Source: a virus. Taken from it: a stretch of DNA of 64,000 nucleotides. Below the pieces are notes generated by a model. The model was given only the letters and a program-made list of their open reading frames with translations. It did no database searches and had not been told where the DNA came from. The stretch is from the IMG/VR virus record IMGVR_UViG_3300025652_000001, positions 32,858 to 96,857 of that record; one strand, 5' to 3'. Every line of letters starts with the position of its first letter. The stretch's first letter is position 1. The position numbers and the translations under genes are program-made. Positions 33,589-39,020 of this stretch are shown here, in pieces.

Positions 33589-33795
33589 ATGAGTACAAGA
33601 TGTCGGTGTTGTGATGCACCGTTAACAGCAACTGATTTGAAGCTTACACAGGAGGACGGTACACCTGAAGACCTGTGTAGTATTTGTAGGGGTTCCATTC
33701 GTTACTATGATCAAGAAGATGATAGTTGGGATCATGAATATCAGTTTGAAGACCTTACAGAAGGGTTGAATACACCAAATAGTAGTGATTATTGA
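33589..33795 (+). CDS. Zinc-finger-like protein, 68 residues
   Basis: Two Cys pairs (RCRCCDAP and LCSICRG) 25-30 residues apart suggest a zinc ribbon; the C-terminal half is acidic. A short hairpin (33537-33557, AATACCC/GGGTATT) lies upstream. The function is unknown. Confidence 0.6.
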   Translation: MSTRCRCCDAPLTATDLKLTQEDGTPEDLCSICRGSIRYYDQEDDSWDHEYQFEDLTEGLNTPNSSDY

Positions 33796-33814
33796 AAATA
33801 AATTGAAATAAAGC

Positions 33815-33843
33815 TTGCAAAATTTAGGAAAGTATGGTATTAT
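33815..33843 (+). promoter_or_regulatory. Promoter of tRNA-containing RNA C
   Basis: TTGCAA and TATTAT are separated by 17 bp with TGG before the -10 box. Transcription should start near 33850. Confidence 0.7.
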
Positions 33844-33849
33844 TGTATA

Positions 33850-34133
33850 TAAGCTATAAAATTTAAAGAAGTCGCTCTGTGTGAGGTAGCCTGATTTAAT
33901 CACAGGTTTAAGTTAAGGGGCTAGACTCCGGTACAGCAGAGCAGGTTGTCGTTTGTAATGACTTGATAAGTCTACGGTTCCCTAGTTCAGTAATAACTCA
34001 CATAAAAGCTGAACAACCTAATTCGAGATATTCGCACCTTGTCTAAGGACGGGTGGAAAGACACAAGGAACTCATAATCCTCTCCTCTCCAGAGTTTGCC
34101 TTCTGGTGTGTCGTAGACAGGCTAAAGAATTAA
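33850..34133 (+). ncRNA. Structured 5' part of RNA C, upstream of tRNA-Trp
   Basis: About 285 nt with long-range stems: GCTCTG/CAGAGC, GGTTGT/ACAACC enclosing GACTT/AAGTC and GTTCAG/CTGAAC, CCTTGTC/GACACAAGG, AACTC/GAGTT, GCCT/AGGC with TGTC/GACA inside. No reading frame with a ribosome binding site. The tRNA follows directly, so this is either a very large tRNA leader or one part of a tRNA-bearing structured RNA. Confidence 0.6.
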
Positions 34134-34209
34134 CAGTTACTAGCTCAATTGGTAGAGCACTGGTCTCCAAAACCAGCGGTTTGAGGTTCGACTCCTTAGT
34201 AGCTGGCCA
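34134..34209 (+). tRNA. tRNA-Trp (CCA anticodon)
   Basis: A complete cloverleaf of 76 nt. Acceptor CAGTTAC pairs with GTAGCTG, the D-stem is GCTC/GAGC, the anticodon stem CTGGT/ACCAG carries loop CTCCAAA (anticodon CCA), and the T-arm has loop TTCGACT. Discriminator G is followed by an encoded CCA end. Confidence 0.95.
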
Positions 34210-34311
34210 AACACCTGTTAGGTGGTGCCATACTTTTGGCACAGGATGGTTCTTGAATGAACTCGTAAGGTTAGCAATTTCCTACGTTAGTGGAAAGCCC
34301 TGTTTAATCAT
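34210..34311 (+). ncRNA. Structured 3' part of RNA C, downstream of tRNA-Trp
   Basis: CACCT/AGGTG, GTGCCA/TGGCAC, GGTTC/GAACT, TTTCC/GGAAA and an enclosing ACAGG/CCTGT stem fill the 100 nt between tRNA and terminator. No gene is present. Confidence 0.55.
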
Positions 34312-34359
34312 ACCCCTCACGCCTATCAACGATGCGCAACCTTGAGGGGTTATTTATTT
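34312..34359 (+). terminator. Terminator after RNA C
   Basis: ACCCCTCA and TGAGGGGT form a perfect 8-bp stem (34312-34319 with 34343-34350) over a 23-base loop, followed by TATTTATTT. Confidence 0.65.
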
Positions 34360-34381
34360 CTAAGAATAATAAGAGGCAAAC

Positions 34382-34996
34382 ATGCCATCGCCAAGATTAA
34401 CTAAAGCCCAAGCTGAGAAGCAACAGAAGGCTCTAGCAGAACATAATGCAAGCCCTAATAAGAACACTGGTGCTGGTGTCCCTCGTATGTCTAAAGGTAT
34501 GGGAACAGTAGCTAGGAAGATTGCAGACCTCACAGAACCAGCCTCAGAGATTATTAAGAAAGCTTTGATTGGTGGTTTGGTTCCAGAGATGGAAGTGTGG
34601 GAAGGAACCCCAGAAGAGAAGCAAGGGATATTACATAAGAGTAAATCAGCTAAGTTTGAGATAGTGGAAGTAGAACCTGAGAAGTTAGATTCTAATGGTA
34701 AGGTTATCTCAGAACAACTTCTGGTTGAAGTATTGATTAGATATGTACCTGTTTCTAAAACTCGTGTGGAGATTGCTAAATGGGTTGTTAGTCAAGATAT
34801 TGCTTTGAAGAAAGCTATTGAAGAAAGTAAGCAACGTAAGATAGCCTTGGCGGTTAGTCAGAAGAAAGCTGAAGAGATTGGAGCTGTTGCTAAGAACGAT
34901 CCTGTGCAAGCAGCTAAAGAGGCTGCTGCGAAGGGTGAGCATGTGAGACCTGCCTTCTCTATGGAAATAGAAGAAGATGAGTACGAAGACGAATAA
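34382..34996 (+). CDS. Putative small terminase subunit
   Basis: A 204-residue protein directly before the large terminase gene, the usual place for the small subunit that recognises DNA for packaging. The N-terminus is basic (RLTKAQAEKQQKALAEH); the centre contains PEMEVWEGTPEEK; the C-terminal third is helical and ends in an acidic tail (MEIEEDEYEDE). No clear helix-turn-helix is visible. The assignment rests on position and size. Confidence 0.5.
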   Translation: MPSPRLTKAQAEKQQKALAEHNASPNKNTGAGVPRMSKGMGTVARKIADLTEPASEIIKKALIGGLVPEMEVWEGTPEEKQGILHKSKSAKFEIVEVEPEKLDSNGKVISEQLLVEVLIRYVPVSKTRVEIAKWVVSQDIALKKAIEESKQRKIALAVSQKKAEEIGAVAKNDPVQAAKEAAAKGEHVRPAFSMEIEEDEYEDE

Positions 34997-36520: not shown

Positions 36521-37368
36521 TAAAATACAGGTCGTCAATAAACTTATTAAATTCGGTGGACACCCTCTACAAATGTAAAGGGCAATACCGAGCGAAGCTC
36601 AGAAATGAGAACGTGTAACGACTATCGAAACCACACCTTGAGGTGGAAGGGAGTAGAGTAGGCTGCAAGTGCAGTCGAAAAAGTAAGGCTTCTTAGGAAG
36701 CGTGATATAGTCTAATCTGCATAGCAATATGCAGCAACTTAAAACTTAGAGGAATCTCTTAATGTGTGACGATTTAATTAAACAAATAGATGACAGTTGG
36801 AAAACTTCAACAGAGTTATTCACTAATAACAGTGGGCATTCTGGGAAGATTATTGCAGTCAAAGGTAAAACTTCCATAGTGCAGTTCGATGATACTGGTT
36901 ATACACGTAAAGCTAATATAGATAATGTACGTGCAGGGAAGGTTAAAGATTTCTATGCTAAGAATAAACATGGCATAGGCTTTCTTGGAGAAATACCCAA
37001 TAAACCTTCCTACTATAAACAAGCTTTGCAGCTGTGGTCTAATATGTTTAAACGCTGCTACTCTCAGAAAGATCCTAGAGGGTATGCGTGGAAAGGTACG
37101 ACAGTGGATGTAAGATGGCACTGTTTCGCTGATTTCCTTAGCGACCTACCTAAACTTGAAAATTTCGACCTTTGGATTAAAGGTCAAATCAGTGGTAAAG
37201 ATAAGTACAATTTAGATAAAGATTTTAAGTTTCCTGATAACAACGTTTATAGTCGAGAAGCTTGCATGTTTGTCACTGATTTCGAGAATAAAAGTGCTGG
37301 TGGTGTTAATCGTCAAACTAAGTATAAGTTGGGCAGAGGGTAACGACCTCTGTTTAATATAAATGATG
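36521..37368 (+). mobile_element. Group I intron in the large terminase gene
   Basis: The 5' exon end GACGAT pairs with GGTCGTC a few bases inside the intron, with the U-G pair at the splice site expected for P1. The core words AACGACTATCGAAA and GATATAGTCT (P7/P3 region) follow. The last base is G. Splicing joins GHDD to CDCCSDCFNYLI. The 848-nt intron carries an endonuclease gene after the core. Confidence 0.9.
36762..37343 (+). CDS. Intron-encoded HNH-like homing endonuclease
   Basis: A 193-residue protein within the terminase intron. The N-terminal third has the beta-rich module IIAVKGKTSIVQFDDTGY common to this phage endonuclease family. The nuclease part is LWSNMFKRCYSQKD, VDVRWHCFADFLSDL, NLDKDFKFPDNNVYSREACMFV. 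The layout parallels the free-standing enzyme at 9973-10542. It presumably cuts intron-less terminase genes to spread the intron. Confidence 0.75.
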   Translation: MCDDLIKQIDDSWKTSTELFTNNSGHSGKIIAVKGKTSIVQFDDTGYTRKANIDNVRAGKVKDFYAKNKHGIGFLGEIPNKPSYYKQALQLWSNMFKRCYSQKDPRGYAWKGTTVDVRWHCFADFLSDLPKLENFDLWIKGQISGKDKYNLDKDFKFPDNNVYSREACMFVTDFENKSAGGVNRQTKYKLGRG

Positions 37369-37502: not shown

Positions 37503-39020
37503 ATGGCACAAGATGAAGAGTTGGCACCTATTGCAATCGCTGACCCTGATATAACATCAAGTATAAGTGTTCGAGAGCTAGGTTACAATGGTTTAAGTGT
37601 TTTATCTGGACAAATTTTAGAAGAATGCAACCCAGAGTTAGTGTGGCCTCGTTGTATATGGACATACAAGAAGATGCTCCATGATAGTACAATAGCTACA
37701 GCCGTTAATATGTTCAATGCTGCTCTTGCAGATGTCCCTTGGTACATTAAAGCACCTAAAGGATATGAAGAAGATTTAGCTGGTCAAGTTAGGTACTTAG
37801 AAACACTTCGACACGATATGGAACACTCTTGGTTAGCCTTCATTAAACAAGCTCTTAGTTATGTTTGGTATGGCTACGCCCCCTTCGAGATTGTTGGAGG
37901 TAAGCGACTAAAAGCTAAGGGTAGTAAGTATAATGATGGTTACTTCAGGCTCCGTAAACTCTCACTAAGAACACAAGATTCAATCTCGGGTTGGGATTAT
38001 AAGAATAAAGGCCGTGACCTTAATGGTATGTGGCAGTTAGTTAATAAACCTCAGAGTAAGCAAGGTAACTTCTTAAGACCTTACCAACCTGCTGAGCCAG
38101 TTAAATCTGATGGGATTAAAACAGAACAATTTATTCCATTAGGTAAACTACTTCTTTTTAGAAACAATCCTCTAAAAGACTCTCCTATCGGCATTAGCCC
38201 ATTCAATTCTATTTACAAGAGCTTTAAGTATAAGCTTGCGTATGAGGAGAACATGGCACATGGTGTTGTTAGCGATGTGCATGGCCTTAAAACCTTGTAC
38301 TTACCTATCCAGTACATGTTGGAAGATGCTACACCAGAGGATGCTGCTGTGTATGAAATGTATAAGAAGATTATGCGTAACATACATGTGGGTCAAGAGA
38401 GTGGCATTATCCTACCAATGGTTAGGGATGAGCTTAAAGGAGATAAGCAGTTTGAATTTGAGATTGTTAACTCCACAGGTCAGAAGTCCTACGATGTTCT
38501 ACAGATCATTGACAGCTACAAGAATGAAATATTAACAGCCTTATATGCAGACTTCCTAATATTAGGTCAATCAGGTGGTGGTAGTTTTGCACTATCTGAA
38601 TCTAAGATGTCAGTTGTACAGATTGTTATCCGTTCTATCCTGAATGAAATCAAAGATGTTCTTAACCATAAATTAGTCCCTTTAATCTTTAAAGAGAATA
38701 AATGGGATACAGACATCATGCCTACATTTGAATTTGGTGAAGTTACTGAAACAACTATCTCTGAATTTGCTAAAGCATTCCAACAAGTATCTGCTACTAA
38801 AGGTATTCCCAAGACTGTTGCTGTTATCAATGAAACTCTTGAGAAACTTGGTTTCACTTACCGTGTACCAGAAGACACTGAACAAGAAGATTTATATGAT
38901 CTTCTGGATGGTGGTGACTCCAAAGTTGGTGCGGGTATGGAGGAAGGAAATGGATCAGGTACGGGGAAAGCTACTGGATCTTCAGGTGATGGTGGTACAA
39001 GTAATTCACAAAATAACTAG
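37503..39020 (+). CDS. Portal protein (DUF935 / Mu gp29-like)
   Basis: A 505-residue portal that forms the dodecameric ring through which DNA is packaged and ejected. The pattern of the DUF935 family is visible: CIWTYKKMLHDSTIATAVNMF near residue 55, WLAFIKQALSYVWYGYAPFEIV near 115 and ADFLILGQSGGGSFALSESK near 350. The C-terminus is a Gly/Ser-rich tail. AGGAG precedes the ATG. Placed between terminase and head protease as usual. Confidence 0.85.
   Translation: MAQDEELAPIAIADPDITSSISVRELGYNGLSVLSGQILEECNPELVWPRCIWTYKKMLHDSTIATAVNMFNAALADVPWYIKAPKGYEEDLAGQVRYLETLRHDMEHSWLAFIKQALSYVWYGYAPFEIVGGKRLKAKGSKYNDGYFRLRKLSLRTQDSISGWDYKNKGRDLNGMWQLVNKPQSKQGNFLRPYQPAEPVKSDGIKTEQFIPLGKLLLFRNNPLKDSPIGISPFNSIYKSFKYKLAYEENMAHGVVSDVHGLKTLYLPIQYMLEDATPEDAAVYEMYKKIMRNIHVGQESGIILPMVRDELKGDKQFEFEIVNSTGQKSYDVLQIIDSYKNEILTALYADFLILGQSGGGSFALSESKMSVVQIVIRSILNEIKDVLNHKLVPLIFKENKWDTDIMPTFEFGEVTETTISEFAKAFQQVSATKGIPKTVAVINETLEKLGFTYRVPEDTEQEDLYDLLDGGDSKVGAGMEEGNGSGTGKATGSSGDGGTSNSQNN

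Follow-up and report, generated by a model that had tools for sequence, protein, structure and literature searches.

The window, by which we mean the whole 64,000-nt stretch of viral DNA analyzed here, carries an orphan abiF RNA at the 3' end of a tRNA-Trp unit, and the best explanation for this element, to which we assign a probability of about 0.64, is that it is a trans-acting decoy antitoxin, made with the phage tRNA, that blocks the AbiF of the host. The RNA is probably a decoy directed at host defense because many unrelated phages that have no toxin carry it, often against a tRNA gene. The initial annotation had placed the tRNA within a structured RNA of about 500 nt, and a second structured non-coding RNA does exist beside the tRNA, but it lies in another part of the unit and is of another kind than was supposed: the RNA that finds support is the abiF motif, 37 nt long, at the unit's 3' end (Table 1).

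Table 1. Features of the tRNA-Trp unit, in positions of the window
Feature	Position	Strand	Basis
Possible sigma70-type promoter, TTGCAA-17-TATTAT with TG-N before the -10	33815..33843	+	Consensus scan
Leader of the presumed transcript, 284 nt	33850..34133	+	Homologue and folding searches
tRNA-Trp, anticodon CCA, 3' CCA encoded	34134..34209	+	ARAGORN; Rfam RF00005, 61.7 bits
Spacer from the tRNA to the abiF RNA, about 100 nt, small predicted hairpins	34210..34312	+	Fold prediction
Orphan abiF RNA, antitoxin-type hairpin with T-rich tail	34313..34350	+	Rfam RF03085, 41.9 bits; own viral model, 46.2 bits

A scan of the full window with Rfam returned exactly two matches, the tRNA and the abiF RNA (RF03085). 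The latter is a full-length match (1–37) that exceeds the gathering score of 37, with E = 2.9e-4 for 64 kb and 4227 families and E = 2.7e-6 on a 611-nt stretch alone, and a covariance model that we derived from 30 viral relatives, the window left out, recovers the same hairpin. The abiF RNA folds as a 37-nt hairpin with an outer 6-bp stem, an inner 3-bp stem and a conserved loop around CCUNUCAACGAU. The conserved loop and its flank, UCAACGAUGC-CAA, are identical in the window RNA, which keeps the stem pairs, with an inner pair that is C-G where the Rfam consensus has A-U, and in which the single motif has one extra base inserted ahead of the 3' arm. The exact loop of the window, GCCTATCAACGATGCGCAA, was found in no other IMG/VR contig. 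This hairpin had at first been read as the terminator of the unit; it is not a plain short-loop hairpin, and a terminator scan reported no terminator at its position, but it is GC-rich and TTATTTATTT comes directly after it, so that the abiF RNA may double as a terminator by virtue of this T-rich tail.

No Abi_2 gene (PF07751) was found in the 96.9-kb virus record from which the window comes, and with no such gene adjacent the RNA is therefore an orphan of the antitoxin type and not part of a type III toxin-antitoxin system. The same holds for its relatives. When IMG/VR was scanned for the core GCCTNTCAACGATGCNCAA, at least 120 contigs were found, and in the first 80 records, which were examined for the toxin, there was no Abi_2 and, at their loci, no match to an AbiF profile built in this analysis, although most of the viral records are fragments and the absence therefore weighs less in them than in the named phages. 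Among INPHARED phages, 74 records gave a match to the abiF consensus, some of these being weak chance matches (one, for example, lies inside an integrase gene). Sixteen named-phage records were fetched; all 16 match the viral model, at 26–66 bits, and Abi_2 was found in none. These are phages of Mycobacterium (Thibault, LittleE, Bromden, Lolly9 and Aziz), Arthrobacter, Synechococcus, Acinetobacter, Aeromonas, Roseobacter and Salicola, together with one faecal phage. As for the phage of the window itself, the nearest named terminases are at most 55% identical to its own and come from Pseudomonas phages, and its IMG/VR relatives are 63–68% identical; no abiF element was found in the loci examined from terminase relatives (L122–L134). 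An HNH endonuclease-like ORF (phrog_2081, E = 1.8e-39) lies at 36762–37343 of the window, between the terminase and a large ORF at 37503.

The stems of the hairpin covary among its viral relatives. Standard pairs fill 94.8% of the pair cells in 30 viral sequences, compared with 77.4% in shuffled ones, and seven of the nine pairs, spread across the outer and inner stems, have changed on both sides. Double-change cells number 48, as against 12.8 ± 4.0 in the shuffled sets and 0–7 when the partner was slid. The window sequence was excluded from the alignment of viral relatives on which these counts are based, and the invariance of the loop is partly owed to the search pattern, outside of which lie the outer stem and the outermost inner pair.

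The position of the element in phage genomes is regular. A tRNA gene on the same strand lies within 60 nt of the hairpin in 47 of 76 viral loci with the stem, when 8.5 would be expected from random placement within the same loci; the corresponding count around the motif in bacterial loci is 0 of 66. Held-out viral loci behaved in the same manner (tRNA adjacent in 23 of 37, 2.8 expected; downstream spacing 4–9 nt). Where the tRNA is downstream in the first set of 76 loci, it begins 3–9 nt past the hairpin in 40 of 41 cases. A tRNA-Arg accounts for 28 of these 41, and the tRNA-Arg cases probably belong to one clade and are not independent. Among named phages, the hairpin precedes a tRNA by 3–6 nt in S-SRM01, S-CREM1, S-SZBM1, Bromden, Lolly9 and Aziz, and follows one by about 10 nt in Mimi. 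In a smaller class the hairpin comes after the tRNA, and some members of this class (L007, L042) have a T-rich tail; the window hairpin falls in it, though at a distance of about 100 nt from its tRNA (Table 1). The link to tRNAs is not universal, since T7-like Aeromonas and Roseobacter phages carry the hairpin among structural genes; in four such loci (L257, L263, L266 and L269) it stands beside a scaffold/capsid assembly gene, away from tRNAs. Two further observations concern the surroundings of the motif. In five loci (L002, L010, L051, L072 and L080) the motif is closely followed by a recurrent sequence resembling GGGAAGCTAAGACAGCGCTAGG, at the place expected for a tRNA, and ARAGORN finds none there. 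One viral contig with the motif in a tRNA array also has an ARAGORN-predicted tmRNA (L065:2864-3193, tag GGNSPLQNII).

This arrangement bears on an alternative in which the phage uses the hairpin in the metabolism of its own RNA, either as a terminator or as a stable element for processing or protecting tRNA transcripts, and in which selection keeps the hairpin for its fold rather than for binding to AbiF. Both the spacing of 3–9 nt to tRNA 5' ends and the T-rich tail, in the window and in the class 3' of tRNAs, would suit such a role. However, most of the tRNA-adjacent copies are 5' of the tRNA, so that a terminator there would stop transcription before the tRNA is reached, the T7-like phages carry the hairpin away from tRNAs, and the 11-nt loop and inner stem, which are shared with the bacterial antitoxin RNAs that precede abiF, go far beyond what a terminator or spacer needs. 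We consider this alternative unlikely.

The abiF RNA is enriched in phages relative to plasmids and E. coli. Matches were obtained in 74 phage records in 2.3 Gb versus 10 plasmid records in 7.3 Gb, with motif coverage of at least 80% in 52 of the 74 and 3 of the 10, respectively, and 28 Gb of E. coli genomes contained no match to the RNA.

The proposal that such an RNA acts on AbiF draws on what is established for bacterial members of the family. RCd22, an abiF-motif RNA of C. difficile, binds AbiF directly and neutralizes it in cis and in trans; its activity requires the stems, and changes that restore the stems preserve the activity (PMC12373285). In PbAbiFr, C32 and U38 are the inhibitory nucleotides. 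A cryo-EM structure of PbAbiF with RNA is summarized in PMC12737573, and DNA of the lactococcal phage sk1 is cited, in a reference within that paper, as protecting phage 712 against AbiF. The RNAs of RF03085, including RCd22 and the AbiFr of PbAbiF, are like the window RNA in fold, loop and above-threshold score; they differ in that the bacterial systems have AbiF, whereas the window record and 96 other virus records examined are without an AbiF gene, and RCd22 carries two motifs where the window RNA has one. The open-access PMC literature searched mentions phage abiF RNA in the annotation of cyanophage S-CREM1 (PMC9964418) and in a review where the role of the RNA is termed unconfirmed (PMC12197685), and we found in that literature no defined anti-AbiF factor. 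The S-CREM1 sRNA is likewise phage-borne and directly before a tRNA-Gly, but that report is a single annotation, guessed to be functional, with no toxin link, tRNA pattern or anti-defense role (PMC9964418).

Phages are known to deploy RNAs of comparable logic. The closest proven parallel is pseudo-ToxI of PhiTE (PMC3475682), with which a phage imitates a type III RNA antitoxin and blocks the abortive-infection RNase ToxN; the same logic is proposed here for the window RNA. Pseudo-ToxI consists of tandem repeats, whereas the window has a single motif, and the phage abiF RNA would counter another toxin family, has another fold and occurs in many phage groups, its neutralizing role there being putative. 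Racr RNA anti-CRISPRs are also solitary phage copies of an RNA part of a host defense, although they mimic a CRISPR repeat and the window RNA an antitoxin (PMC10651486). The tRNAs with which phages evade tRNA-cutting defenses are, similarly, RNA genes of tRNA clusters aimed against host nucleases, but they replace the substrate whereas abiF RNA would inhibit the enzyme (PMC11555353).

AbiF is a HEPN ribonuclease whose HEPN domain groups with that of Cas13, of which it is a proposed ancestor (PMC12165695). This relationship lends something to the idea that the phage RNA targets a host or phage protein other than AbiF (Cas13, for example, or a different HEPN nuclease) or that it acts as a regulator of a phage gene, and a single phage RNA may have more than one protein target. 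Against it, AbiF is the sole demonstrated partner of the motif in the literature examined (PMC12373285) and, tRNAs apart, no phage gene constantly adjoins the element; we judge the idea improbable.

Bacterial loci, obtained by searching GTDB genomes with the same motif pattern, provided a control for the absence of the toxin from viruses. A full-length AbiF lies just downstream of the motif in 35 of 80 bacterial loci, and remnants occur at further loci; one of these bacterial AbiF proteins was confirmed as Pfam Abi_2 with E = 7e-51. When loci with the stem and at least 1.2 kb of downstream sequence were compared, AbiF or a remnant was present in 31 of 49 bacterial versus 0 of 63 viral loci (p = 2.8e-15), and in held-out loci the counts were 23 of 35 versus 0 of 37. 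In a search with the Rfam model of 369 genomes from the class of one gammaproteobacterial genome, 24 had matches; 20 loci from this sample were examined, and 13 of them have AbiF next to the motif. Six bacterial loci, mostly of Bacteroidales (L142, L150, L155, L158, L164 and L202), have an intact motif and an AbiF that is truncated or internally deleted. Orphan abiF RNAs thus arise in cells too, because bacterial loci can keep the motif with a broken AbiF, and such loci are the reason to weigh the view that the viral elements are passive leftovers of acquired AbiF toxin-antitoxin loci that have lost the toxin and have no present function. Debris of this sort would not be expected to hold a regular position against tRNAs, compensatory changes maintain the stems across viruses, and no toxin remnant was seen at any viral locus examined, held-out loci included, all of which makes this view very improbable.

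The remainder of the unit was as first described in some respects and not in others. The tRNA-Trp with its encoded CCA was confirmed, and, as had been stated, no convincing protein gene is present within 33796–34381; a homologue search with a neighboring 204-aa ORF found none. The promoter, which had been called clean, is present as a sigma70-like site, but matches of this type occur at a near-chance level (4 in 1 kb here versus 2.2 ± 1.6 in shuffles). Neither the leader, described as about 285 nt of stem-rich sequence, nor the roughly 100 nt of hairpins placed 3' of the tRNA folds beyond chance: z = -1.18 for 33850–34133, with 22 of 200 shuffles equally stable, and z = -1.51 for 34207–34355, with 15 of 200. 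Homologous phage loci, by which the leader was to be checked, were sought with blastn among 50,697 phage records, and none was found for the leader; three 19–20-mers from it had no exact matches in IMG/VR, and blastn with the whole unit gave tRNAs only among the matches listed. The proposed check with Rfam covariance models (33780–34390, E up to 10) recovered only the tRNA, the abiF RNA and two sub-threshold chance matches. Within the leader, positions 33943–34019 form a tRNA-sized 77-nt segment whose ends pair perfectly over 7 bp (AGGTTGT/ACAACCT). ARAGORN calls no tRNA at this segment or elsewhere in the leader, relaxed settings included, and a reading of the leader as degenerate tRNAs was rejected on that ground. 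Despite the long non-coding leader and the nested stems of its predicted fold, the suggestion that 33850–34350 is one large ornate RNA embedding the tRNA, whether GOLLD- or ROOL-like or of a new class, is therefore unsupported, the leader being without homologue and without excess folding and Rfam giving no match to GOLLD, ROOL or any other large RNA, and we attach hardly any weight to it.

In the decoy-antitoxin reading that we prefer, the phage would make the abiF RNA without the toxin, probably in one transcript with the tRNA, from which tRNA processing or termination would release it. The freed RNA would then bind AbiF dimers of the host in trans, and the bound RNase would stay inactive during infection, so that the RNA would serve as a decoy against abortive infection and protect the phage; the accompanying tRNAs may in addition stand in for those that such nucleases destroy. 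The tRNA array might be a sensible home for an RNA of this kind because phage tRNAs counter tRNA-cutting defenses (PMC11555353) and Cas13a cleaves tRNA anticodons (PMC11042736). We extend the proposal tentatively, at slightly under even odds, to orphan abiF RNAs at large: in many unrelated phage groups, and often in tRNA arrays, they may constitute a general counter-defense against AbiF, with the array as a delivery cassette from which processing frees the decoy and whose tRNAs replace those that are cut.

AbiF is a defense ribonuclease restrained by RNA and is thought to lie at the root of Cas13. Should it prove true that phages encode this very antitoxin RNA, their escape from AbiF could be put to a direct test. 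The RNA would then indicate that phages infecting actinobacteria, cyanobacteria and proteobacteria are under real pressure from AbiF, and RNA inhibitors overlooked by annotation pipelines could be sought in tRNA arrays.
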